Source of the DNA: Aurantiacibacter sp. D1-12 | Lineage (GTDB): Bacteria; Pseudomonadota; Alphaproteobacteria; Sphingomonadales; Sphingomonadaceae | NCBI RefSeq assembly: GCF_028858515.1 | Contig: NZ_JAPJZJ010000002.1 | Location: 516,514-580,513, forward strand | Length of the DNA stretch: 64,000 nucleotides | Direction of reading: 5' to 3' | Shown: one piece after another, positions 13,758 to 45,939 of the stretch | Layout of the letters: the number at the start of each line of letters is the position of its first letter | How positions within the stretch are numbered: position 1 is the first letter of the stretch | Program-made: the position numbers and the translations under genes | The notes under the pieces: model-generated | Databases searched by the model: none | What the model was told of the DNA's origin: nothing | What the model saw: only the letters and a program-made list of their open reading frames with translations

Positions 13758-15554
13758 TCACTTCATCGCAGGTTCGTCAAACTGGAGTGAGGCAAGACGT
13801 GCGTAAAGTCCGCCCTTGGCAGTCAGACTGGCGTGATCGCCCTGCTCCACGATCCGGCCATCCTCCATCACGATGATCCGATTGGCCGCGCGCACGGTGG
13901 CAAGGCGGTGGGCAATGACCAGCGTAGTGCGGTCCTGCATCAGGTTTTCAAGTGCGTCCTGCACCAGCTTCTCGCTTTCGGCGTCCAATGCGCTGGTGGC
14001 TTCGTCGAGCAAAAGGATCGGAGCATCGCGCAGCAGGGCACGGGCAATCGCCACGCGCTGGCGCTGGCCGCCCGAAAGCCGCGCACCGCCTTCACCCAGG
14101 AAAGTATCGAGGCCATCAGGCAGGTCGCGCAGGAACTGTTCGGCATTGGCCGCGCGCGCTGCGTCCCAGATCGCCTCTTCGCCCGCTCCCCATGCACCGT
14201 AACGCAGGTTGTCGCGCGCGCTGGCGGCGAACAGGATGCCTTCCTGCGGCACGAGCGCCATGCGGCGACGGATTTCTGCTGGGTCAGCCTGCGTCAACGG
14301 AACGCCATCGAGCTTGATCGTGCCCGATTGCGGATCGTAAAACCGCTCGACCAGCTGGAAAATTGTCGACTTGCCCGCGCCCGAGGGGCCGACGATGGCG
14401 ACGGTCTCGCCCGGCTCCACGGTCAGGTTAAACTCGGCAATCGCCTGCTCATCCGGCCGTGTGGGATAGCTGAAAGTGACGCTCTGGAAGGCAAGCCCTC
14501 CGCGCGGTGGCTGGGGCAAGGCCTGCGGACGCGCAGGCGCGGTGATCTCGGGCTCTTCCTCGAGCAATTCGGCAAGGCGGCTTGCCGCACCTGCGCCGCG
14601 CAAGAGATCACCGTAGACTTCGGTCAGGGCGCCAAACGAACCCGCAGCGATGATCCCGCCAACCACGAAGGAGGTAATCGTGCCGCCGGTAATCTCGCCC
14701 GAACTGACCAACATCGCACCGCGCCACAGCAACAGGACAATCGAACCGAAGATCAGCGTCATGATCGTTGCCGTCATGACCGATCGGATAAGGATGCGCT
14801 TTTTCGCCATTGCGAAGGTCGCGTCCACAGCCTTGCTGAAGCGCCCAGCCTCGCGCTCTTCCTGATTGAACCCCTGGACAATCTTCATCGAAGACAGGAC
14901 TTCTGTCGTGATCCCGCCAACATCCGCCACATGATCCTGACTGGATCTGCTGACATTGCGCAGTCGCCTCCCGAAAACAGCGATGGGCACGATCACCACC
15001 GGAATGCCGAGGAGCAACCAGACAGTGAGCTGCGGAGCAAGCCAGAACAGGTACCCGATGCTGAGCACCGCCATGATCGAATTGCGCAGCGCCACCGAAA
15101 CGGTGGTGCCCACCACTGTCTCGATAATTGCCGTGTCCGATGTCATACGGCTGCTGATTTCCTTGGGACTGTTCTCTTCGAAAAAGGCCGGGGATAGCCG
15201 CAACAGGTTGGTGTAGACCTTCTCGCGAACATCCGCGACCACACGCTCGCCAATCCAGCTGACGAAATAGAAACGCAGCGCTGTACCAAGTCCAAGTACG
15301 CCGACCAGCAGCATCAGGTAACGGAACCAGCGGTCGATATCCCCGGCGCCCTCACCCGCCGCGCCAAAACCGCGGTCCACCACCAGCTTCATGCCATAGG
15401 GAATGGCGAGCGACATGACCGAAGCTGTGACCAACAGGGCAATCAGCGCCAGCGTGATTTGCGTCGGATACTTGACTGCCTCTCGATAGATCATCCGCAA
15501 CGGACGCAGCGTCTTGGCCGGTTTGGGATCGTCTGCAGTTTCGGGAAGTGCCAT
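13758..15554 (-). CDS. ABC exporter, fused permease and ATPase (MsbA-like)
   Basis: I start it at the ATG at 15554, giving 598 residues; the open frame extends upstream without conserved sequence. The N-terminal ~310 residues hold a six-helix type I exporter membrane domain. The ATPase domain shows the Walker A segment GPSGAGKST, the signature LSGGQRQRVAIARALL, the Walker B segment ILLLDEATSALD and the H-loop IAHRLATV. Members of this group export lipids, drugs or peptides; the substrate is not readable here. It is divergent from phaZ across a 240-base gap. Confidence 0.9.
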   Translation of the reverse strand: MALPETADDPKPAKTLRPLRMIYREAVKYPTQITLALIALLVTASVMSLAIPYGMKLVVDRGFGAAGEGAGDIDRWFRYLMLLVGVLGLGTALRFYFVSWIGERVVADVREKVYTNLLRLSPAFFEENSPKEISSRMTSDTAIIETVVGTTVSVALRNSIMAVLSIGYLFWLAPQLTVWLLLGIPVVIVPIAVFGRRLRNVSRSSQDHVADVGGITTEVLSSMKIVQGFNQEEREAGRFSKAVDATFAMAKKRILIRSVMTATIMTLIFGSIVLLLWRGAMLVSSGEITGGTITSFVVGGIIAAGSFGALTEVYGDLLRGAGAASRLAELLEEEPEITAPARPQALPQPPRGGLAFQSVTFSYPTRPDEQAIAEFNLTVEPGETVAIVGPSGAGKSTIFQLVERFYDPQSGTIKLDGVPLTQADPAEIRRRMALVPQEGILFAASARDNLRYGAWGAGEEAIWDAARAANAEQFLRDLPDGLDTFLGEGGARLSGGQRQRVAIARALLRDAPILLLDEATSALDAESEKLVQDALENLMQDRTTLVIAHRLATVRAANRIIVMEDGRIVEQGDHASLTAKGGLYARLASLQFDEPAMK

Positions 15555-15658
15555 ATCGCGTTTCGACCTAACCCAATGTACCGCGCCGTCAAGCCAGCGC
15601 GGCGCTCGCAACAGAAGGAAGTGAGGCAAATTTTCCACCGCCGCAGTGCGGAATCGCT

Positions 15659-15672
15659 TTGCCGCATTGCAA
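15659..15672. repeat. Short inverted repeat upstream of phaZ
   Basis: TTGC (15659-15662) and GCAA (15669-15672) form an inverted repeat with a 6-base gap in the 240-base region between the divergent ABC exporter and phaZ genes. PHA regulators of the PhaR type bind TGC-rich inverted repeats, so this could be an operator, but a 4-base half site is weak evidence. I see nothing else definite in this gap. Confidence 0.25.
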
Positions 15673-15794
15673 CATCTGTCAAAAAGGGGCATGCCTCCCG
15701 CTCGCGCAAAACAGCCCACAGGCAGGCGCACCAACTTCCGGCCCTGGCGAGACGACTGTCCCGGTGGCCACAATTTTGCAGGGGACGCTCCACA

Positions 15795-35046: not shown

Positions 35047-36410
35047 GCCCGCTCCTCTCGCTGGCGAACGAGCATGACGGCACACACGGCAGCGAGGCAC
35101 AACAGCGTCTGGTTACGAAGCGGATAGTCGAGCAGCGATTGCGCGGCAATGGCTGCCAATGCCGCTGCTCCGCCCAGCCGCATCCACATGCCCTCCGCCG
35201 AACCGCGCGGTATCGCAGCGAGCAGGATCCAGATGAGCCACGCAGTGGCCATGGCGAGCGAGACAATGCCACCTTCGATGGCGATCTCCAGCCAGTCGCT
35301 ATGCGCCCGGCCCGCCTTGCGCGGGGACACATGCTCGAGCGACTCGTGAAGCTGGAACACCTCGTCGAAAGTGCCCATACCGCTGCCGACAGGCCAGTAT
35401 TGCCCGGCTGCATAGAGGCCATCCTCCCAGATCTCCGGACGGTCTGCCGCACCCGCCGAGGCAAAGCGCTCCACGCTCTCCGCCACGCGTCCGCCGCTGG
35501 CGTAGGAAGCGCCGAGCGCTCCAGTGGCAAGCAGAACTATGCCGACGCCCACGCCAAACAGCTTGCCCGGCCGCACCACGCCCACTCGCAGCAAGGCAAC
35601 TGCACGCAGCAGCAGGATCGCGAGCGGTACGCCAAGCAGCACCATTCCCGTGCGGGACTGGGTCAAAACGACTGCGAGCGCGAAGAACATGCCGGTAATC
35701 GCAGCAGCGAAGAGCCATTGCGCCTGCCTTGGCCGTGGAAGCGATGCCAGCAGTGTCAGTCCGACCACGAACATCAGCGCTGTCGAATTGCGGTTTGCAA
35801 AGGTGGCATAGAAAACGTCGGCCTCGGTGCGCTCCCCATAAAGCAGGCCCAGACTGTTCGCGGTCGAGAGCTGCACCGCGCCTAGGAAAAAAGCGGCCAG
35901 GATGACGAGCAGGCCCGCCGCAACAAGCCGCAGCTTCGCCGGCCTCTGGAGGGTGCTCCCGATGACAATGATCGTAGCCGACGCCAGTGTCCCGCTAAAA
36001 GCCACCAGCGTGCGCATCGGATCAACACTTATCGGGAACCACCGGTCGCTGGCCAGCCCGGCGAGCGCAAAGCTCTCCGCAACCGGTTCGCGCCCGGGCA
36101 GCCCTTGCCAAAGGGACGCGGGAAGCGGGATGAGCTGGATCAGCGGCAGGGCAACCGATATGCTGACAAGCGCCACCAAGGCACGTGGAGCACTGCGCCA
36201 GAAAGCCAGTACCGCGTCACGGTTCACCGCCAACACAGCAAGCGCGAAGAGCTGGATAGCAAGGTTCCGCAGCCCGTAGGCAAGGCCGCCCCCACCAAGC
36301 GCGACAGCTAGAACAATCAGGATCTGGAGATGCAGAAGCGGGCCACCCAACCGCTCTGGTGAGGAGACGGTGACTACCGGATCAGCCTGACCGCCGGAAG
36401 AATCAGCCAC
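35043..36410 (-). CDS. O-antigen ligase family membrane protein
   Basis: The 455-residue protein has about 12 hydrophobic segments and a large periplasmic loop containing the WaaL/Wzy-type pattern GSGMGTFDEVF and AHSDWLEIAIEGG, as well as the cytosolic-side motif FANRNSTALMF. Such enzymes join or polymerise lipid-linked glycans on the periplasmic face. It stands between a small exported acidic protein (8-base overlap at its 5' end) and a repeat protein (4-base overlap at its 3' end). Whether it is the ligase or polymerase of the polysaccharide made by the genes at 42-64 kb is unknown. Confidence 0.88.
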   Translation of the reverse strand: MADSSGGQADPVVTVSSPERLGGPLLHLQILIVLAVALGGGGLAYGLRNLAIQLFALAVLAVNRDAVLAFWRSAPRALVALVSISVALPLIQLIPLPASLWQGLPGREPVAESFALAGLASDRWFPISVDPMRTLVAFSGTLASATIIVIGSTLQRPAKLRLVAAGLLVILAAFFLGAVQLSTANSLGLLYGERTEADVFYATFANRNSTALMFVVGLTLLASLPRPRQAQWLFAAAITGMFFALAVVLTQSRTGMVLLGVPLAILLLRAVALLRVGVVRPGKLFGVGVGIVLLATGALGASYASGGRVAESVERFASAGAADRPEIWEDGLYAAGQYWPVGSGMGTFDEVFQLHESLEHVSPRKAGRAHSDWLEIAIEGGIVSLAMATAWLIWILLAAIPRGSAEGMWMRLGGAAALAAIAAQSLLDYPLRNQTLLCLAAVCAVMLVRQREERA

Positions 36411-36681
36411 CCGTGCCCGGCGAAGCGTTATTGCCGGGGAAACCCTCGTTATTCTCGCTCACATCACCGCCAATAGCAGCAGCAACACCGCCCAGGATCA
36501 GCACGCCGAGCAGGATCGCCCAGATGGGAAACTCATCGTCGTCATCATCGCCTTCAATGATCTGTGAAGGCGCCATATCGAGCGAGACGGATGCGGCTGC
36601 CGCACGGGTATTCGCCTCTGCAGCAATGGGGGATAGCACCAGCATGGTGGCTGCAGCGATCGCCAGGCTTTGCTTCAGCAT
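36403..36681 (-). CDS. Small exported acidic protein with C-terminal helix
   Basis: The 92-residue protein has a signal peptide (MLKQSLAIAAATML... to AEA-N), a short acidic region with five consecutive Asp (EGDDDDDEFP), a hydrophobic helix (about residues 53-71) and a Gly/Asn-rich tail. It looks like the small proteins that are exported and anchored with the tail outside. It overlaps the start of the O-antigen ligase gene by 8 bases and so leads its operon. It is not a PEP-CTERM substrate, because no PEP motif and no basic tail are present. Function unknown. Confidence 0.65.
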   Translation of the reverse strand: MLKQSLAIAAATMLVLSPIAAEANTRAAAASVSLDMAPSQIIEGDDDDDEFPIWAILLGVLILGGVAAAIGGDVSENNEGFPGNNASPGTGG

Positions 36682-36905: not shown

Positions 36906-38804
36906 ATGAGCGGAATTGCAGCGATACTGCACACAGATGGCCGCCCCGCCGGTGTGCCAATGATCGAGGCTATGACATCCGCCATGTCATACCGTGCACG
37001 CGACGGCACGGGTCGTCACCTTCGCGGCCCCGTGGCGCTGGGACACTGCGCCTTCCACACCAGCGCCGAAGACCGCGATGCAGCGCAGCCTCTTACCGGA
37101 GCGGACGGGCGCTTCGCGATTGTTCTTGATGGCTACATTGCCAATTATGCCGATCTGCGCACCGACTTGCTCGGGCGCGGAGTGGCACTCCACAACCGCA
37201 GCGATGCGGAGCTCTTCCTCCAAGCATACATACTGTGGGGTCCCGACTGCCTCGACAGGCTGGAGGGCGAATTTGCCTGCATTATCGCCGATCATGCCGA
37301 GCAAGCACTCTTCTGCGCCTGTGACCATGCAGGGCTTCGCCAGCTGCACTATCACTGGGACGGGAGGGCCCTTCTTGCAGCGACCGACATAGCGGGGGTG
37401 CTGGCGGCGCTTCCACAGCGCCCCGCCCCCAACCTCCCCTATCTCGCCGAGCATGTGGCGAACGAGTGGTATTCGCAAGACGAGACGCCGTGGCAAAGCA
37501 TCAAGCGGCTGCCAAAAGCCCATTCACTGACTGTTGGTGCTTCGGGACCACAGCGCCGCGAGTACTGGCAGCTGCCGACCGAAGTCACGATCCGGCACGC
37601 CAACGACGCGGAGTATGCAGAGCACTATCGCAGCGTTCTGGTCGATTGCATCCGCGGCGCTTCGCGCAGTGATGCGCCATTGGCTTGCGATGTCAGCGGC
37701 GGCCTCGATTCATCGGCGATATTCTGCATTGCGGACCGGCTGGAAAAGAGTGGCGAACTTCCCGCCCCCGCTCTGCACGGGTTCACTCTCAGGGCACCTG
37801 AAGGAACGGCAGCTGACGAGGCGATGTATGTTCGCGCCGTTGAACAGCAAACTTCGCGGGTCATTACTCCCGTCGATCTGTTCATGCCCGGCCTGGACTG
37901 GTTCGAGGGGCAGGGAGAGGCTGACCGCCGGCTCCCATTCCTTCCCAATACCGTGATGATGCGCAACATGGCAGAGACAGCTGCCAGCAAGGGGTGCCGC
38001 GTCAACCTTGTCGGGCAAGGCGGCGATCAATGGCTGGACGGGCTTCCGCACCATTTCCGCCAAGCGCTGCAAATGCGCGACTGGAATGCACTTTGGCGGA
38101 ACTGGCGCGCCGACTGGCGCGCCAAAGGTGCGATCTGGACGATCCGCGAATTTGCCAAGCAATCCGCGATGGCTCTGGCTCCCCCCGCTCTGCATGACCG
38201 GCTGAAGCGATTCCGCCAAACAATCGAGACAAGTGAGGACGATAGCGCTGCGCACATTCTCTCCGATGACATGCGCAGCGTTCTTGCTGAACGGCGCGCG
38301 GTGTTTGCAGCACGGTTCGCCGATATCCCGCCGGATGACCGGATCAAGCGCCTGAAACTGGAATCTCCGTTCCCCCTGCTCGTCTATGACATGATGAACT
38401 TGCAGGCATCACGTTCGGGCCTCGAATACCGCCACCCCATACTTTCGCGCCGTTTCCTCTCCTTTAGCACGGCCACTCCCGAACATATCAGGTGGCGCGG
38501 CGGGCAAACCAAATTCATCCATCGCGTGGCGATGTCAGGCGTGCTGCCGGACGAAATTGTCCGCCGTGACAGCAAGGCGCACTTCAATCAGACATTTTAC
38601 AAGCATCTGCCGAAGATGCGGCAACCCATCCTTCAAGATATTGATAAGCAACCGTTTTCCACTCTTGTTGATCCGCCAGCAGTGAAGCGGATGGTCGCTT
38701 CCCCTTGTGCCCAGCCGTTTGACCGCGCGCCCATATGGACGCTATGGGGATTGTACGCATCTGCCGCATTTCTCTCGGAGAATTCCGCGGCACAGCAAGA
38801 GTAA
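36906..38804 (+). CDS. Asparagine-synthetase-type lasso cyclase homologue
   Basis: The 632-residue protein has the two-domain layout of asparagine synthetase B: an N-terminal glutamine amidotransferase-like half and a C-terminal ATP-binding synthetase half with the PPi loop SGGLDSS (264-270). The start is MSGIAAILH: the Cys2 nucleophile of true asparagine synthetase is replaced by Ser, so glutamine hydrolysis should be lost. Lasso peptide cyclases are likewise homologues that activate an Asp/Glu side chain and need no ammonia. The ATG at 36906 has AGAGGA upstream. The next gene is the precursor, 5 bases after the stop. It could also act on another amine, so cyclase is a context call. Confidence 0.8.
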   Translation: MSGIAAILHTDGRPAGVPMIEAMTSAMSYRARDGTGRHLRGPVALGHCAFHTSAEDRDAAQPLTGADGRFAIVLDGYIANYADLRTDLLGRGVALHNRSDAELFLQAYILWGPDCLDRLEGEFACIIADHAEQALFCACDHAGLRQLHYHWDGRALLAATDIAGVLAALPQRPAPNLPYLAEHVANEWYSQDETPWQSIKRLPKAHSLTVGASGPQRREYWQLPTEVTIRHANDAEYAEHYRSVLVDCIRGASRSDAPLACDVSGGLDSSAIFCIADRLEKSGELPAPALHGFTLRAPEGTAADEAMYVRAVEQQTSRVITPVDLFMPGLDWFEGQGEADRRLPFLPNTVMMRNMAETAASKGCRVNLVGQGGDQWLDGLPHHFRQALQMRDWNALWRNWRADWRAKGAIWTIREFAKQSAMALAPPALHDRLKRFRQTIETSEDDSAAHILSDDMRSVLAERRAVFAARFADIPPDDRIKRLKLESPFPLLVYDMMNLQASRSGLEYRHPILSRRFLSFSTATPEHIRWRGGQTKFIHRVAMSGVLPDEIVRRDSKAHFNQTFYKHLPKMRQPILQDIDKQPFSTLVDPPAVKRMVASPCAQPFDRAPIWTLWGLYASAAFLSENSAAQQE

Positions 38805-38809
38805 GGCCG

Positions 38810-39169
38810 ATGGAAAACAAGCGCACCGAACACAAGAAGACATATTCCCGCCCTCAGTTGACTGTCTTCGGCTCCGTCCGGAACCTGACCGGCGGCAGCC
38901 TCGGGACCGCCGGTGATGGCGGCGTGATGAATATGCTGATGTCCGATCCGCGGGCCAAAGAAAACGTGCAGCGCGTTGGCACACACCCTGCCGGCTTCGG
39001 ACTTTACCTGTTCGACTACAAGCCGCAGTTCCGAGAGCAGCACGGTTCGGATCGCCAGTTCGGCGTTATGGCGGACGAGGTTGAGGCCATTGTTCCGGCC
39101 GCAGTTTCGCGTGATGCCAGCGGCTATGCGCGCGTCGACTACGCGCAGCTTGGCATCGTGCAAGCCTGA
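38810..39169 (+). CDS. RiPP precursor: lasso-type leader fused to S74 chaperone domain
   Basis: The 119-residue protein has three parts. Residues 1-28 are a leader with the lasso pattern Y12-x2-P15-x-L17-x3-G21-x5-T27 (in YSRPQLTVFGSVRNLTG). Residues 29-44 are a Gly-rich segment whose Gly29 would be core residue 1 and Asp36 core residue 8. Residues 45-119 resemble the S74 endosialidase chaperone family: SDPRAKENV at the start, GLYLFDYK, FGVMADEVEAIVPAAV and the end GYARVDYAQLG. S45 and K50 keep the five-residue spacing of the self-cleaving Ser/Lys dyad. The gene follows the cyclase by 5 bases. The leader, core and cleavage sites are inference. Confidence 0.8.
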   Translation: MENKRTEHKKTYSRPQLTVFGSVRNLTGGSLGTAGDGGVMNMLMSDPRAKENVQRVGTHPAGFGLYLFDYKPQFREQHGSDRQFGVMADEVEAIVPAAVSRDASGYARVDYAQLGIVQA

Positions 39170-39216
39170 TTTAGGGGTTTACGCCTTCACGCACATTGCC
39201 GAAGGGTGGCCAGATA

Positions 39217-40164
39217 ATGGTTGGCATCCTTGAAGAGCATCTGGAATATCTTTCCACCACAGGGCGGCATGCGCTGTTCGCGCGGGCGCTTGGCCAGGTT
39301 GTACAACCCGGAGATGTCGTGGCCGATCTCGGCTGCGGTTTTGGCGTCCTCGGTTTCCAAAGTTTGGCGGCAGGGGCTGATCGCGTTTTCGGAATTGACC
39401 AGACTGCGGCCATCGAAATTGCCCGGGAAACTGCACGACGAAGCGGACTGGAAGACCGTTACACCTGCCTGCATTCCAGCACGTTCAAAGCCGAATTGCC
39501 CGAGAAGGCCGACGTACTGGTCTGCGATCATGTGGGATACTTCGGCATCGATTACGGTATCATCGCGATGCTGCAGGATGCGCGCCAACGGATGCTCAAG
39601 CCGGACGGTGCAGTGGTTCCCCAGCACCTGGACCTGAACGTTGCGGCGGTTTCATCCGAAGCATGCCATGACCTCGCCACGGCATGGTCACGCGCGCCCG
39701 TGCCGGCTGAGTACGCCTGGCTCGACACCTATGCCGCGAACAGCCGCCACGAATTCGAATTTGCTCCCGACGACCTGTGCAGCGCGCCCGCTCGCATCGG
39801 CCGTGTGAGGCTGGACGAAGACAACCCCGATTTGCTCGAGTTCAATTCAGAACTGGTCATCACCCAGCCGGGCATGATGCATGGCATCGCCGGATGGTTC
39901 GACTGCGAATTGGCCGAAGGCGTGTGGATGACAAATTCGCCGTTGGAAAAAGACGCAATCAATCGCTCGCAGGCCTTCTTCCCGCTGGCAAAGCCACTCG
40001 ACTTAGAAGCCGGCAATCGCATTGGAGTCTCGATGCGTATCGATCACAAAGCGCAACTGTTCACCTGGACAATCCAGCCGGGCAACGGTGGCGAAGCGCA
40101 AACGATGAGCACGTGGAAGAGTACAATCCTTTCGGCCGCTGACCTGGCGAAGGGGGCAGAGTGA
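39217..40164 (+). CDS. PRMT-like SAM-dependent methyltransferase of the RiPP locus
   Basis: The 315-residue protein has SAM motif I, VVADLGCGFGVLGF (residues 34-47), and a second acidic motif DHVGYFGIDYG (104-114) at the place where protein arginine methyltransferases have their double-Glu loop. The C-terminal half is strand-rich like the PRMT barrel. The start ATG at 39217 has GAAGGG about 12 bases upstream. Position between precursor and kinase genes suggests it methylates the precursor, perhaps on a side chain or carboxylate; the acceptor is unknown. It overlaps the kinase gene by 4 bases, so the two are coupled. Confidence 0.8.
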   Translation: MVGILEEHLEYLSTTGRHALFARALGQVVQPGDVVADLGCGFGVLGFQSLAAGADRVFGIDQTAAIEIARETARRSGLEDRYTCLHSSTFKAELPEKADVLVCDHVGYFGIDYGIIAMLQDARQRMLKPDGAVVPQHLDLNVAAVSSEACHDLATAWSRAPVPAEYAWLDTYAANSRHEFEFAPDDLCSAPARIGRVRLDEDNPDLLEFNSELVITQPGMMHGIAGWFDCELAEGVWMTNSPLEKDAINRSQAFFPLAKPLDLEAGNRIGVSMRIDHKAQLFTWTIQPGNGGEAQTMSTWKSTILSAADLAKGAE

Positions 40165-41030
40165 AACCGGCCTCTTCCTTCGTCCTTCTTGCGCCCGGCC
40201 CACAACGAGATCTGGCTACCGATCCTTACGACAGATGGCTTTCTCCCGACGACACGGTCATCGCGGAATTCTACCGCCACGCCGGAGACTTTCTTTTGCG
40301 CTTTCCCGAGCAAGCCGACTTCTTCATCACCCGCGATTTGCGAGATATCCGATGCTCGCCCGCACCGGACATGGATGAGGCTTCCTTGCAGTCGCTGTTC
40401 GAGAACTCCGTCCGCCCCGTGCTCTCGAATCACGCAGGCTCGCTGAATCTGCATGGCAGCGCGGTTAATATAGAGGGTCGTGCACTGGCGGTGATGGGCT
40501 ATTCACGCCGTGGCAAGAGCACGCTTGCAGGCGCGTTGGCCATGCGCGGTTTGCCCTTACTGACCGAAGACGTACTGGCGATTTCCCGGACTGAAGACCG
40601 GCACATGGTCACTCCGCAGCGCGCTTCGCTCAGGGTTTTTGAAGATAGCGCTGCATTCCTTCTCGGAAGGCCGGAAAGGCCACAGAGCGAAAGCGAAAAA
40701 CGGGATATCGCAAGCGGTGCCATCCCGGTGGCGAGCGCGCCTGTGCCGCTGGGTGCAATGTGCATCCTTGGACCGGGAGAGACGGAAGAACTCTCCATCT
40801 CTCCTATGCGCCAGTCCGACATCTTGGCGGAGATCATGCAACACAGCTTTATTCTCGATGTTGAGGACAAGGCGGCGCTTCGGTCGCATTTCGAACGGCT
40901 GGCAAGGCTGGCCGAAGCCGTCCCTTGCTACGCGCTTGACTACCCTCGCGATTTTGCCCAATTTTCCGAAACCGTCGACACAATTGCCGCGTACTTCCAG
41001 ACCGAATGGGCCGCCGATGCAGGACAGTGA
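40161..41030 (+). CDS. HPr-kinase-like protein of the RiPP locus
   Basis: The 289-residue protein has the HprK/P C-terminal kinase signature: LHGSAVNI (98-104), a Walker A loop GYSRRGKST (113-121) and LLTEDVLAI (133-141), where an acidic pair binds metal. The loop deviates from the classic GxSGxGKS: Arg-Arg stands where Gly and a small residue are usual. HprK homologues in lasso gene clusters phosphorylate the peptide (C-terminal Ser in known cases). Related proteins next to PqqD-type and nucleotidyltransferase genes are a recurring cassette of unclear function. The start overlaps the methyltransferase stop (ATGA). Confidence 0.82.
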   Translation: MKPASSFVLLAPGPQRDLATDPYDRWLSPDDTVIAEFYRHAGDFLLRFPEQADFFITRDLRDIRCSPAPDMDEASLQSLFENSVRPVLSNHAGSLNLHGSAVNIEGRALAVMGYSRRGKSTLAGALAMRGLPLLTEDVLAISRTEDRHMVTPQRASLRVFEDSAAFLLGRPERPQSESEKRDIASGAIPVASAPVPLGAMCILGPGETEELSISPMRQSDILAEIMQHSFILDVEDKAALRSHFERLARLAEAVPCYALDYPRDFAQFSETVDTIAAYFQTEWAADAGQ

Positions 41031-41295
41031 CACGATCTCCCGCTCTGATGACGTAGTCTCCCGCGAGGTTGGTGGCGAAACGGTGCTGCTCGATCTTGGT
41101 CAGGGCACCTATTACGGGTTGAACGCTGTTGGCGGGCGTATCTGGGAGTTCCTTGAAGGCGGCGACCGCACGATTGGCGAGATTATCGCTCTGCTCACGG
41201 ACGAGTTTGACGTTACTGTCGCGGATGCCGAAGCAGATCTGCGTGCTTTGCTGACCGAGCTTGAAGCGAACGCGCTAGTGAAACGCGCAGTTTAA
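41017..41295 (+). CDS. PqqD-family leader-binding protein
   Basis: The 92-residue protein matches the PqqD/RRE fold: three strands (VVSREVGGETVLLDL), a turn GTYYGLNAVGGRIWEFL and a helical end with EIIALLTDEF and LRALLTELEANALV. RRE domains bind leader peptides, in lasso systems through the YxxPxL motif, which the precursor has. It begins 14 bases inside the kinase gene, so it is translationally coupled to it. It is a stand-alone B1-type protein; no B2 transglutaminase-like protease is fused or adjacent. It converges with the nucleotidyltransferase gene, the stops overlapping by 4 bases. Confidence 0.88.
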   Translation: MQDSDTISRSDDVVSREVGGETVLLDLGQGTYYGLNAVGGRIWEFLEGGDRTIGEIIALLTDEFDVTVADAEADLRALLTELEANALVKRAV

Positions 41296-42578
41296 CGCCT
41301 CCTAGTCAGGCGCTTCGACAGCGCGCCAAGCATCCGTTTTGCGTAGAGCATGATGAGAGGCCAATGCGCATTTTCAGGATACCGGTTGCGGAGCGATTGC
41401 GCGTCCGGAAACGCATGCCTCCGGATCAGCTGCAGGCGATCACTCCACCGATCAAGGCTGACAAAGTCCTTGCGAACCCGTTCTCCAAGGGTTGCATCGG
41501 TAAGATAATGCTCTGTTGCATGTGGCCCTGACGCGGCGGCCAGCTGCGCAGCGATCGACTGCGGCAATGGTGCGTCCAGCAGAGCCGCTGCTCTTTGCAT
41601 TCCGGCAAGACAACGCGCGACCAACCCGCTCTTGGTAGCGGCGGCAACCAGCCTTTCCCAGTCTGCCGGAGCGAACCGCCGCATCAGCAAAGCAAGGTCC
41701 ATCAGCCAGATAAGCCTCTCCCCCTCGTGCACGCGCTCTCCATCGTGATAATAGCCATGCGTTGCATGCAGTGCCTGGTTGATCAGTCCGCGCAGCATCA
41801 ACAGCTCCTGCGGCACCGTCTGCGCGGTGACACAGAGGCGCGGCAGGGCGACCGGCTCGCCCCAGAAAGCAACCTCGTCGAGAACAGAGCAAAGGTACGG
41901 GCTGCCGACCAGCCGCCAGTGCAGGTCGATGGCGTGGCGGAACCCCATTCCGGTGTCGAACACCCAGTTCTGCTGTCCGAAAGATGGCGGGCCCTCCGGC
42001 TTCAACCCAAGGCCGCGTAATACCCGTTCGGCGTCTTGTTCCCGACCTGGACGAACCAGAAGGTCGCTATCCCCGCGCCGCCGCACGGCGGGCGTTTCGT
42101 ATGCTAGGTAAGCGACTGCGGCCCCCTTGAGCAGTCGCGTCTCGATCCCTTCTTTCGCAAGGGCATCGAGTACACGGACCAGCATCTCCCGATGTGATGC
42201 TTCCCACAGAGCCTGCAGGCGCGCCTCTTCCCGAACAGGCTTCAACGCCGACGCAGGCCATGCCGAGAGGTCGGAGTCGCCCTCGACGAGTGCCAGCGCG
42301 ATACCGTGATATCGGATCATATCGGTAATACGCTCCGGCTCCCACGTGTCTTGCCAAGCAACGGTCTCACCACGCAGCAGCGCACTCAAGACAGCGACCC
42401 AGTCCTCCGTTTGTTGCGGACCAACCTGAGGGGGTTTTGATGTGATTTCGTTCTCCTGCACAACGCACGTCTGCACTGCCGCCCGCGCAATTGCCAGTTC
42501 CACTCCGCAACCTACTCGATTGGCAGGGGGAATAGGTTGACGCAGTATGAGCATGCCGCGATGTTGCGCCGCAGACAC
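41292..42578 (-). CDS. Nucleotidyltransferase family protein (NTP_transf_5-like)
   Basis: The 428-residue frame encodes a protein with a nucleotidyltransferase core: LLKGAAVAYLAYETP, then RRGDSDLLVRPGREQDAERVLRGLG with the paired Asp residues, and a helical C-terminal half. This is typical of the PF14907-type proteins found in lasso peptide and HprK-like/PqqD cassettes. The first ~40 residues are unconserved; a GTG at 42461 may be the real start. It is convergent with pqqD and divergent from rmlA. A nucleotidyl transfer to a modified precursor is possible but unproved. Confidence 0.8.
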   Translation of the reverse strand: MSAAQHRGMLILRQPIPPANRVGCGVELAIARAAVQTCVVQENEITSKPPQVGPQQTEDWVAVLSALLRGETVAWQDTWEPERITDMIRYHGIALALVEGDSDLSAWPASALKPVREEARLQALWEASHREMLVRVLDALAKEGIETRLLKGAAVAYLAYETPAVRRRGDSDLLVRPGREQDAERVLRGLGLKPEGPPSFGQQNWVFDTGMGFRHAIDLHWRLVGSPYLCSVLDEVAFWGEPVALPRLCVTAQTVPQELLMLRGLINQALHATHGYYHDGERVHEGERLIWLMDLALLMRRFAPADWERLVAAATKSGLVARCLAGMQRAAALLDAPLPQSIAAQLAAASGPHATEHYLTDATLGERVRKDFVSLDRWSDRLQLIRRHAFPDAQSLRNRYPENAHWPLIMLYAKRMLGALSKRLTRRR

Positions 42579-42616: not shown

Positions 42617-43498
42617 TTGCAGCGCAAGGGAATTATCTTGGCCGGCGGATCGGGAACGCGCCTCTATCCGCTGACACGCGGCGTCTCCAAGCAATTGATG
42701 CCCGTCTATGACAAGCCGATGATCTACTATCCGCTCAGCACACTGATGCTGGCGGGTATTCGCGACATATTGATCATCACTACGCCGCAGGATCAGGAGC
42801 AATTCCATCGCACGCTTGGCGATGGCTCCGGTTTTGGCATCGCGCTGTCCTATGCTGTCCAGCCGAGCCCCGATGGATTGGCGCAGGCTTTTCACATCGG
42901 TGCCGATTTCATCGGCGGTGACCGCAGCGCTCTCGTTCTGGGGGACAACATATTCTACGGGCACGGACTCCCCGAGTTGCTTGGCAATGCGGCCGCGCAG
43001 GGAAGCGGTGCGACTGTATTCGCTTACCGCGTCAACAATCCGGAGAGCTATGGCGTGGTTGAATTCTCCCCTGATGGCACCGCCCTTTCAATCGAAGAAA
43101 AACCGGCCGAGCCCAAATCCCGCTTTGCTGTAACCGGTCTCTATTTCTACGACGAGACCGTGGTGGACCGCGCGAAGAGCTTGCAGCCATCTGCGCGCGG
43201 AGAGCTGGAAATCACCGATCTCAACCGGAGCTATCTCGATGATGATTTGCTGCAGGTTGAGATCATGGGCCGCGGTTTCGCATGGCTCGACACCGGTACG
43301 CATAGCTCTTTGCTCGATGCCGCCAGTTATGTGCGTATCACCGAAGAGCGGCAGGGCCTGAAGATCTGCTGCCCGGAAGAGATTGCCTGGAGACAAGGGT
43401 TTATCGACGATGCCCGACTGGAGGAGATTGCCGCGCCGCTCGTGCAATCGGGGTATGGCGAGTATCTGATGGCGCTGCTGCGCGAAGGCAAGCGCTGA
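42617..43498 (+). CDS. rmlA: Glucose-1-phosphate thymidylyltransferase
   Basis: RmlA makes dTDP-glucose from glucose-1-phosphate and dTTP, the first step to dTDP-L-rhamnose. The 293-residue protein starts with the signature [16 protein letters not shown] and contains [12 protein letters not shown] and [15 protein letters not shown], which are family hallmarks. The start is a TTG at 42617 with GGTCGGAG 4 bases or more upstream. It is the first gene of rmlACDB; rmlC follows with a 1-base overlap (TGATG). Confidence 0.96.
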
Positions 43499-44043
43499 TG
43501 AAGGTCATCGCCTGCGACATCGACGGGCCGCTGATCATCGAACCCGAGGTGTTCGGCGATGATCGCGGCTTCTTCATGGAAAGCTGGAATGCAGGCGCGT
43601 TTGCCGAGGCCGGATTGGACATTGCTTTCGTACAGGACAACCATTCGCGTTCCGACAAGGGGGTGCTGCGCGGCCTGCATTTCCAGAATCCGTGTGCCCA
43701 AGGCAAACTGGTGCGCGTGGTGAGGGGCGCCGTGTTCGATGTGGCCGTAGACCTGCGCCGGAGCTCTCCCACTTTCGGCAAATGGGTGGGGGTCGAGCTG
43801 TCCGGGCGCAATCACAGGATGCTCTGGATACCACGCGGATTCGCGCACGGTTTCCTGACGCTCGAGGACGGAACCGATTTCCTCTACAAATGCGATGCGC
43901 CCTACGCGCCCGAGCATGAAGTAACGCTGGCGTGGGACGATCCCGATGTCGCGATTGAATGGCCAACCGCCGGGCTGGACATCCGGCTATCGGCGAAGGA
44001 TCGCGACGGGCGATCGCTCACCGAGATAGAGGCCTTGGTATGA
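43498..44043 (+). CDS. rmlC: dTDP-4-dehydrorhamnose 3,5-epimerase
   Basis: RmlC epimerises the keto sugar at C3 and C5. The 181 residues match the family; visible motifs are the N-terminal PLIIEPEVFGDDRGFFME, the catalytic base segment QDNHSRSDKGVLRGLHF, and GFAHGFLTL. It overlaps rmlA and rmlD by a base or four (TGATG and ATGA), so the pathway is translated from one mRNA. Confidence 0.96.
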   Translation: MKVIACDIDGPLIIEPEVFGDDRGFFMESWNAGAFAEAGLDIAFVQDNHSRSDKGVLRGLHFQNPCAQGKLVRVVRGAVFDVAVDLRRSSPTFGKWVGVELSGRNHRMLWIPRGFAHGFLTLEDGTDFLYKCDAPYAPEHEVTLAWDDPDVAIEWPTAGLDIRLSAKDRDGRSLTEIEALV

Positions 44044-44888
44044 AGGTCCTGATCACCGGGGCGACCGGCCAGCTTGGCCGCGCATTGATCACAACCGCAC
44101 CGCCCGAGGCCGAACTGGTGCCCGTTTCCGCCGAGCAATGCGACCTTACCGATAGCGACGCTATCTCCCGCATGGTTGGTGACGTTGAACCCGGCCTGAT
44201 CATCAACGCGGCTGCCTATACCGCGGTTGACCAGGCGGAGAGTGACGAAGAGACCGCACGCCGCGTGAATGCAGATGCCGTGGCAGCGCTCGTCGCCGCG
44301 CATTCGGGAAAGCTGGTGCACGTTTCGACCGATTTCGTGTTCGGCGGCGATTCCAGCCGCGCCTATCGCCCCGATGATACGCGGAGTCCTCTGTCCGTCT
44401 ATGGACGTACCAAGGCGGCAGGCGAGGATCACTTGCGCGATACCGATCTGCTGGTGCGGACATCATGGCTCTATGCCGCGGGGGGCATGAACTTCGTGCG
44501 CACGATGCTGCGGCTTATGACGGAAAAAGACGAGGTGCGCGTGGTAGCCGACCAGATCGGCGCACCGACATGGGCAGCGGGGCTGGCAAAGACGATCTGG
44601 GGCCTCGTCAATGCAGAGGCTACAGGGACATTCCATCATAGCGATACGGGCGTTGCGAGCTGGTACGATTTCGCCGTTGCGATCCAGGAAGAGGCACGCG
44701 CCATCGGCCTGCTGGGCAAGAGTGTGCCGATCATTCCCGTTAGCACGCAAGACTACCCGACGGCGGCAAGACGCCCGGCCTTTTCGCTGCTGGACAGTAG
44801 CAAGACACGAACCCTGCTAGATGATGGCCACACTCACTGGCGCATGAACCTGTGGCACATGCTGCGCGCGGAGAAGGAGCTTGGCTAA
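44040..44888 (+). CDS. rmlD: dTDP-4-dehydrorhamnose reductase
   Basis: RmlD reduces the epimerised sugar to dTDP-L-rhamnose with NAD(P)H. The 282-residue short-chain dehydrogenase has GATGQLGRAL for the cofactor, VSTDFVFGG near the active site and YGRTKAAGE, with the catalytic Tyr and Lys. The ATG at 44040 overlaps the rmlC stop; the reading frame continues upstream inside rmlC without conserved sequence. It overlaps rmlB by 8 bases. Confidence 0.95.
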   Translation: MKVLITGATGQLGRALITTAPPEAELVPVSAEQCDLTDSDAISRMVGDVEPGLIINAAAYTAVDQAESDEETARRVNADAVAALVAAHSGKLVHVSTDFVFGGDSSRAYRPDDTRSPLSVYGRTKAAGEDHLRDTDLLVRTSWLYAAGGMNFVRTMLRLMTEKDEVRVVADQIGAPTWAAGLAKTIWGLVNAEATGTFHHSDTGVASWYDFAVAIQEEARAIGLLGKSVPIIPVSTQDYPTAARRPAFSLLDSSKTRTLLDDGHTHWRMNLWHMLRAEKELG

Positions 44889-45939
44889 CCTCCTCATCAC
44901 CGGCGGCGCCGGCTTTATCGGCGGCAATTTTGTGCATTTCTGGGCGGCACGGCATCCGGAAGACAAGCTCATCGTGCTCGACAGCCTGACCTATGCCGGC
45001 AATCGCGCGACAATTGCCGGTGTCGAACAGGCCGAACTGGTTGTAGGCGACATTCGCGACACGGCACTGGTCGAGAAGCTGCTGCGTAACCACGATGTGG
45101 ATACGCTCGTCCACTTTGCGGCAGAAAGCCATGTCGACCGATCGATCAGCGGGCCTGACACCTTTGTCGAGACCAATGTAGTCGGCACACATTCGTTGCT
45201 CAAAGCTGCGCGCACCGCGTGGCTGGACGAAGGATCGGGCAAGCCGCACCGCTTCCACCATATTTCAACCGACGAAGTTTACGGATCGCTCGAACCGGAC
45301 GATCCGGCCTTCAGCGAAACGACGCAATACCGGCCCAATTCGCCCTATGCAGCGTCAAAAGCAGCGTCCGATCATCTTGTCCGTTCCTATCACCAAACCT
45401 TCGGCCTCGAGGTGACGAGCAGCAATTGCTCGAACAATTACGGACCTTACCAACACCCGGAGAAACTGATCCCGCTGTTCCTGCTGAACGCGCTGCACGA
45501 CAAGCCACTGCCGATCTATGGCGACGGGATGAATGTGCGCGACTGGCTGCATGTGGAAGATCATTGCCGAGGGATCGAGGCTTGCCTCGATAACGGTACC
45601 GTCGGGGAGAACTACAATATCGGGGGCGGCGCAGAACTTGCGAACATGGCGGTGATCGATAAGATCTGCGCGCTGGTAGACGAGGCATTTGCCGGGAACG
45701 AGGCACTGTCCTCCCGCTTCCCCAACGCGCCCGCCGCCAAGGGTAGCCCGACGGCCACGCTCAAGACCTTCGTCACCGACCGAATGGGCCATGATCGCCG
45801 CTACGCAATCGACGAAACGAAAGCACGGGCCGAGCTAGGTTACGCGCCCAGTTGGACCTTCGAGGAAGGCATGGTGCAAACGGTCGAGTGGTACCTGCAA
45901 AACGAAGCATGGTGGCGCCCGCTGGCACAACGACCTTAG
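44881..45939 (+). CDS. rmlB: dTDP-glucose 4,6-dehydratase
   Basis: RmlB dehydrates dTDP-glucose to the 4-keto-6-deoxy sugar. The 352-residue protein starts at a TTG and shows GGAGFIGGNFVHF for NAD, HFAAESHVDRSI, the STDEVYGSL segment, the YxxxK motif in YAASKAASDHLVRSY and NCSNNYGPYQHPEKL. It is the last of the four rhamnose genes. Downstream, the acyltransferase gene starts 9 bases after the stop. Confidence 0.97.
   Translation: MANLLITGGAGFIGGNFVHFWAARHPEDKLIVLDSLTYAGNRATIAGVEQAELVVGDIRDTALVEKLLRNHDVDTLVHFAAESHVDRSISGPDTFVETNVVGTHSLLKAARTAWLDEGSGKPHRFHHISTDEVYGSLEPDDPAFSETTQYRPNSPYAASKAASDHLVRSYHQTFGLEVTSSNCSNNYGPYQHPEKLIPLFLLNALHDKPLPIYGDGMNVRDWLHVEDHCRGIEACLDNGTVGENYNIGGGAELANMAVIDKICALVDEAFAGNEALSSRFPNAPAAKGSPTATLKTFVTDRMGHDRRYAIDETKARAELGYAPSWTFEEGMVQTVEWYLQNEAWWRPLAQRP

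Follow-up and report, generated by a model that had tools for sequence, protein, structure and literature searches.

What is a folded domain of the phage-tail-spike type doing at the end of a lasso peptide precursor? The question is raised by a gene cluster of Aurantiacibacter sp. D1-12, which lies in a 64,000-nucleotide stretch of contig NZ_JAPJZJ010000002.1 (positions 516,514 to 580,513). This whole stretch is called the window here, and its own numbering is used throughout. The cluster probably encodes a lasso pathway whose precursor carries an S74-type C-terminal domain likely to cut itself off between Met44 and Ser45, the core ending where the cores of short sister precursors end; I hold this reading with moderate confidence. 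An earlier, sequence-only reading had described six gene families here as a ribosomally synthesized and post-translationally modified peptide (RiPP) system. The open reading frames and the Pfam and NCBIfam results gave the same six families, arranged as follows.

36906..38804, + strand: AsnB-like lasso-type macrolactam synthetase (cyclase, C protein), 632 amino acids
38810..39169, + strand: precursor composed of leader, core and S74 domain, 119 amino acids, 5 bases after the cyclase gene
38810..38893, + strand: leader, residues 1-28, with the pattern YxxPxLxxxGSVRNLTG and Thr27 at position -2; predicted boundary
38894..38941, + strand: predicted core, residues 29-44, GSLGTAGDGGVMNMLM, with the ring acid Asp36 at core position 8
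38942..39166, + strand: compact Peptidase_S74 or intramolecular chaperone auto-processing (ICA)-like domain, residues 45-119, with predicted catalytic Ser45 and Lys50 and predicted self-cleavage at Met44|Ser45
39196..40164, + strand: PrmA/PRMT-like methyltransferase, 322 amino acids, 26 bases after the precursor gene
40161..41030, + strand: HprK-like kinase, overlapping the methyltransferase gene by 4 bases
41017..41295, + strand: PqqD-type RiPP recognition element (RRE) protein (B1), 92 amino acids, overlapping the kinase gene by 14 bases
41292..42578, - strand: PF14907 nucleotidyltransferase-like protein, convergent, overlapping the PqqD gene by 4 bases

As had also been stated, the first five genes share one strand; the gaps between them are of 26 bases at most, and some overlap slightly.

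The precursor and its enzymes

The precursor begins as a lasso precursor does. Two NCBIfam lasso models matched its residues 9-29, both below their cut-offs (NF033528, 1.7e-5; NF033521, 1.7e-3), and the lasso leader in 5v1v aligned weakly at profile positions 12-31 (E 0.47). A homologue search gave 500 matches, of which 120 were listed and inspected; alignment A1 consists of the window precursor and 47 of these 120. Thr27 is invariant in all 48 aligned sequences, and Y12, P15 and L17 are kept in at least 90%. When the residue following this Thr is set as -1, the first acid from core position 7 on is found at position 8 in 95, at position 9 in 21 and at position 7 in one of the 120 listed homologues. 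The other three failed the pattern and an Asp8 was read in them by eye, giving an acid at positions 7-9 in 120 of 120. For the 117 S74-type precursors that fit the pattern, the core start and the S74 Ser lie 14-22 residues apart (median 17). In the window precursor, SDPRAK stands directly C-terminal to the predicted core.

The cyclase matched Asn_synthase (PF00733, 7e-37) and GATase_7 (1.7e-24) in Pfam, and its best NCBIfam model was the lasso cyclase NF033535 (9.2e-87; 292 bits, below the 525-bit cut-off). It has a PP-loop, SGGLDS, at residue 264. Its N-terminus reads MSG; thus, no Cys follows the start Met. The RRE protein matched PqqD (PF05402, 4.1e-20) over the cut-off, while its best NCBIfam model was NF033536 lasso_PqqD_Bac (6.1e-16, below the cut-off). 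A YxxPxL leader with Thr at -2, an acid at 7-9, an AsnB-like synthetase and an RRE protein are among the marks of a lasso pathway, and these four are present here. The kinase has the Walker A motif GYSRRGKS at residue 113 and matched Hpr_kinase_C (PF07475, 2.5e-5) and TIGR04352 (1.2e-11), both under the cut-off. The nucleotidyltransferase matched NTP_transf_5 (PF14907, 1e-30) over the cut-off. For the methyltransferase, Pfam gave PrmA (1.3e-10) and PRMT5_C (1.2e-6, slightly below its cut-off). It is about 55 C-terminal residues shorter than full-length relatives of 373-386 amino acids (compared with L046 7831-8961 and L006 8404-9528). The missing C-terminal piece resembles a small separate domain with a motif like LLDGTRNAAEIEAHL.

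The rest of the precursor is a folded domain, as the sequence-only reading had proposed. Peptidase_S74 (PF13884) matched residues 45-99 (1.3e-6; 29.1 bits, over the cut-off of 22), and in the AlphaFold2 model the predicted local distance difference test score (pLDDT) per 10-residue block is 76-94 across residues 41-119. The domain aligned to the ICA domain of MYRF (7dc3, E 2e-6), which was also the top PDB match in Foldseek (prob 0.82, E 0.027). Against a viral library, Foldseek placed phage auto-processing domains on top (E 5e-9). MYRF is cleaved at P586|S587 by Ser587 and Lys592, and either S587A or K592A abolishes the cut (PMC8326128). In the alignment, Ser45 and Lys50 of the window precursor, five residues apart, occupy the places of this dyad, and the MYRF aromatics Y615 and Y617 align with the invariant Phe68 and Tyr70. 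The Ser is kept in 120 of 120 listed homologues and the Lys in 119.

The S74 domain is also the most constrained part of the precursor. In the six pairs formed by the window, L006, L007 and L046, its nonsynonymous divergence (dN) is 0.11-0.18 with a synonymous divergence (dS) of at least 1.0, saturated in one pair. The leader and the core had a higher dN in all 12 comparisons, the closest being 0.16 versus 0.17.

Recurrence of the gene set and the short sister precursors

Is this arrangement peculiar to one genome? In Alpha-, Beta- and Gammaproteobacteria alike, precursor homologues have these enzymes as neighbours. The sequence-only reading would have been refuted if most homologues of the precursor lacked cyclase or RRE genes, which is not the case at the loci compared. 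The cyclase adjoins the precursor at 17 of the 19 S74-type loci (the window, L006-L020 and L046-L048), being split in two frames at one locus and partial at a contig end at another. The two remaining loci are one that ends at a contig edge before a possible cyclase and one that stands alone (L048, in genome G041). The kinase is present at 17 of the 19 loci, PqqD at 16, the methyltransferase at 14 (complete, partial or broken) and a local leader peptidase B2 (PF13471) at 12. Relatives of the nucleotidyltransferase are strong at eight loci and weak (45-75 bits) at six. A strong exporter match (>480 bits) was found at eight loci, from four of which the exporter queries had been chosen by eye. L015, L016 and L017 are interrupted by contig ends; in the genomes of L015 and L017, B2 lies beside a cyclase at the end of another contig (L122 and L121, respectively). 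L019 has no local B2, and the B2 of its genome is near another cyclase (L120). As precursor homologues in unrelated genomes have the same genes around them, the arrangement is not due to chance.

The high frequency of the kinase (17 of 19) and the methyltransferase (14 of 19) would also suit a system that delivers the S74 protein in modified form, the lasso-like core being no more than a remnant tether. However, the same tailoring genes are also found around short precursors without an S74 domain, which makes this explanation very improbable. The methyltransferase, kinase, PqqD and nucleotidyltransferase genes accompany short precursors at L049, L053, L054, L114 and L115, and at the short-precursor loci L052 and L116 only the methyltransferase is missing from the set.

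Could the gene be a stray piece of a phage tail fibre, unrelated to the cluster next to it? NCBI names all seven of the named proteins among the 120 listed homologues 'tail fiber domain-containing protein', and S74 relatives are abundant in phage contigs, being encoded in 176 of 222 candidate stretches in IMG/VR. The phage comparisons rest on 80 of these 176 relatives. The best of them is 51% identical over residues 43-114, and the phage S74 domains are C-terminal, 80 of 81 ending no more than 6 residues before the end of the protein. On the other hand, neither the leader pattern on the S74 proteins nor an enzyme-profile match was found at the 80 phage loci, while a lasso cyclase adjoins the precursor at 17 of 19 S74-type loci. 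I give a stray fragment next to no credit, as it is already contradicted by the co-occurrence with lasso enzymes. A phage origin of the S74 domain itself is the simplest reading of these sequence comparisons. Two small secreted-looking proteins of other bacteria (L081 1432-1914 and L092 1483-1914) also have a compact S74-like C-terminus, without a lasso leader.

The short precursors are informative about where the core ends. In a sample of 298 genomes of the family, with this cyclase type counted at E 1e-60 or better, 10 have it, and a leader-bearing precursor adjoins it in all 10. Three of these clusters have an S74 precursor (G000, the genome of the window, G103 and G251) and seven have a short one. 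The short precursors stop after 16-24 core residues (median 17, n=7); an example is GSAGRMNGDGGFMTMV of G285. In four of the seven (L053, L114, L052 and L115), a Ser codon of the form TCN comes immediately after the stop codon, as though the domain had been lost from its first residue on through a nonsense mutation. Besides a short precursor with its enzymes, G041 has at another site the lone S74-type lasso precursor of L048 (8282-8674), which is perhaps served in trans.

Whichever kind of precursor it has, each of the 10 clusters is flanked by an O-antigen-ligase-like gene on one side and by two or more rhamnose-type genes on the other, named by resemblance. The cyclase tree contains 15 S74 and 7 short representatives and omits L013 (broken frame) as well as L015, L017 and L048 (no or partial cyclase). 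The two kinds are mixed on it, with three state changes on the best tree, two of which are forced by well-supported branches. G285, with its short precursor, is sister to the clade of the window (support 95/99). What chiefly suggests removal of the domain is that the same machinery occurs in the same place with and without S74, and that S74 starts approximately where the short peptide ends.

The rhamnose genes that had been placed directly after the cluster were recovered as dTDP-rhamnose-like genes at 42617-45939, named by resemblance rather than by a scan. On the other side of the cluster there is one further gene:

36403..36681, - strand: small secreted-looking, acid-rich protein, between the cluster and the O-antigen-ligase-like gene

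Its counterparts stand beside the cluster in L006, L007, L046, L047 and L114 (38-50 bits), and also, as judged by eye, in L054.

Proposed self-cleavage, its alternatives and the peptidase elsewhere

Several results weigh against a self-cleaving domain in a working lasso pathway. None of the PDB matches in Foldseek had an E below 0.001, and the VIA Z to MYRF ICA was low, at 4.3. One listed homologue, P0118, has Ile in place of the dyad Lys. All 81 compact phage S74 domains have an intact Ser-Lys pair; because retention of the pair is a family-wide feature, it does not single out cleavage here. Before residue 41, the pLDDT per 10-residue block is 42-62, so that confidence in the modelled leader and core is low. 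No enzymes of the set were found within 19 kb of the lone precursor of L048. Some decay of the window cluster is conceivable, because its methyltransferase is about 55 residues short. MYRF cleaves only as a trimer, which is held by a C-terminal coiled coil, and its cut strand threads through the beta-strand ring of a neighbour (PMC8326128). Such a trimerizing coiled coil is absent from the window precursor, which ends 75 residues into the domain and whose AlphaFold2 model has no long terminal helix. For this reason, the domain is said here to work like an ICA, not to be a trimeric ICA.

With the coiled coil that drives trimerization of MYRF, and hence its cleavage, missing, the S74 domain may stay attached as a permanent plug or binding module, and a lasso peptide would be displayed on a small folded protein. 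Lasso enzymes are reported to tolerate C-terminal fusions, as with astexin-1 and pandonodin joined to GFP or a leucine zipper (PMC8498205), and the strong constraint on S74 would fit as well. However, the sister clusters manage with a core that ends at about the same residue, and the cutting Ser and Lys are kept together in 119 of 120 listed homologues. I consider permanent attachment unlikely, though worth keeping in mind. The modelled contrast between a likely disordered leader and core and a well-ordered S74 domain would also agree with a carrier that provides solubility and protease protection to the leader-core part and is then removed by a host protease or an unlinked enzyme. A plain carrier needs no conserved Ser-Lys pair at the core boundary, however, and this explanation seems improbable.

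A further point against the lasso pathway is that neither B2 nor a close lasso-type exporter was found within the 64-kb window. B2 and a lasso-like exporter are absent at the window, L006 (Aurantiacibacter sediminis) and L046 (G103) in 64, 16 and 18 kb, respectively. Where might a peptidase come from? The window genome holds one B2, at C4:88971. In a search of 20 genomes, two of which have no S74-type precursor, B2 was found in 18 of 18 with such a precursor, or 19 of 19 including the window genome. This excess is modest, since 134 of the 298 sampled family genomes have B2. A. sediminis, G213, the genome of L007 and G251 each have another lasso cluster of a different kind, with exporter, B2, cyclase, kinase and PqqD genes. 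Its fuller forms are L117 of A. sediminis, with a sulfotransferase-like gene seen by eye, L118 of G213, L119, and L204 of G251. At the corresponding site in the window genome and in that of a congener, G103, B2 and the exporter alone remain, and tblastn gave no trace of the second cluster's cyclase, kinase and PqqD in 16-17 kb.

L050 7888-10102 (G000, contig C4): leftover B2 and ABC exporter of the window genome
L051 5943-8283 (G103): leftover B2 and ABC exporter

The leftover B2 is 57% (window) and 51% (G103) identical to the A. sediminis B2, and the leftover exporter is 66% and 65% identical to its counterpart there. The pair retained in the window genome is exactly what the S74 cluster lacks, and this B2 may serve the window cluster in trans. 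In G041, the cluster has its own B2 and exporter, and the second B2 site has just a B2 with an inner stop. The window itself has a generic-looking ABC exporter at 13758-15773, 34% identical to a lasso-type exporter, which could serve the cluster or export lipids.

The lasso pathway with a self-cutting S74 domain may be pictured as follows. Leader binding would be the task of the PqqD protein. Modification of the core would likely fall to the HprK-like kinase and the methyltransferase, with Ser2 as a candidate kinase site. The B2 encoded on another contig would likely remove the leader after Gly28, and a bond between Gly29 and Asp36, made by the AsnB-like synthetase, would close a ring of eight residues about the tail. 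The S74 domain would keep the tail in place or covered and would come off through its Ser45-Lys50 dyad, either before or after the ring is closed; self-cleavage at Met44|Ser45 would free a 16-residue core. A more tentative proposal is that the domain is a phage-derived intramolecular chaperone turned into a self-removing RiPP follower, which anchors the tail during ring closure and then cuts, setting the C-terminus of the peptide.

Novelty and comparison with known systems

The sequence-only reading had gone as far as suggesting an undescribed RiPP class. This suggestion was not upheld: the lasso type is seen in the leader, in the acid at core position 8, in the cyclase and RRE protein and in the B2 elsewhere in the genome, and ordinary short lasso precursors are found in sister clusters with the same surroundings on the chromosome. 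The window contains a lasso cluster with a new precursor architecture, which occurs in several proteobacterial classes and is not annotated as such. In the open-licence PubMed Central literature, with the top 25 of 288 and the top 10 of 331 matches covered for the two longest lists, no relevant report of a lasso peptide joined to an S74 domain was found. 'Lasso peptide' and 'tail fiber' occur together in three papers, in one of which they stand in unrelated rows of a table, and 'lasso peptide' and 'S74' in one paper, on travel illness.

How the tail is kept in place while the ring forms has, to my knowledge, long been an open question in the study of lasso peptides. With a chaperone-like domain built into the precursor, this question would become addressable with one protein and one point mutant. 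If the domain does cut itself, it would be a new way to finish a lasso peptide and a ready-made tag for lasso peptide production. Among lasso precursors, such an autoproteolytic C-terminal domain would be a first, concealed in databases as a 'tail fiber domain-containing protein'. Proteins now taken for pieces of tail fibres (500 matches, 120 inspected) would then count as RiPP precursors, and clusters missed by precursor searches limited to short peptides would be exposed.

The nearest known clusters are the kinase-bearing lasso clusters with split B1 and B2, those of paeninodin, pseudomycoidin, BsfA and SyanA. As described in the sources cited, they share with the window an AsnB-like synthetase, a PqqD-type B1, an HprK-like kinase, a YxxPxL leader and, in some, a nucleotidyltransferase (PMC9266682, PMC10368454). 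Their kinases target a Ser of the core, namely the C-terminal Ser in paeninodin and Ser3 in BsfA (PMC9266682, PMC10368454). The precursor of paeninodin-type clusters, as described there, stops at the core, whereas that of the window continues into a folded S74 domain. The window core also lacks the C-terminal Ser kinase site, a PRMT-like methyltransferase is added, and B2 and the exporter are not at the locus. With the endosialidase tail spike and MYRF ICA, the window precursor has the PF13884 domain and the Ser-x4-Lys dyad in common; MYRF ICA ranked first among the PDB matches by sequence, by Foldseek and by VIA, as phage ICA domains did in the viral library. In contrast to these, the window domain is compact and without a coiled coil, and its cargo is a 44-residue leader-core peptide instead of a trimeric beta-helix. 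The compact C-terminal S74 domains of phages are alike in position and dyad but have neither leader nor lasso enzymes in the 80 of 176 compared. Finally, the engineered fusions of astexin-1 with GFP and of pandonodin place a folded protein after a lasso core, as in the window precursor (PMC8498205). Those fusions are man-made and are not described there as self-cleaving, whereas the S74 extension is natural, conserved and predicted to cleave itself.

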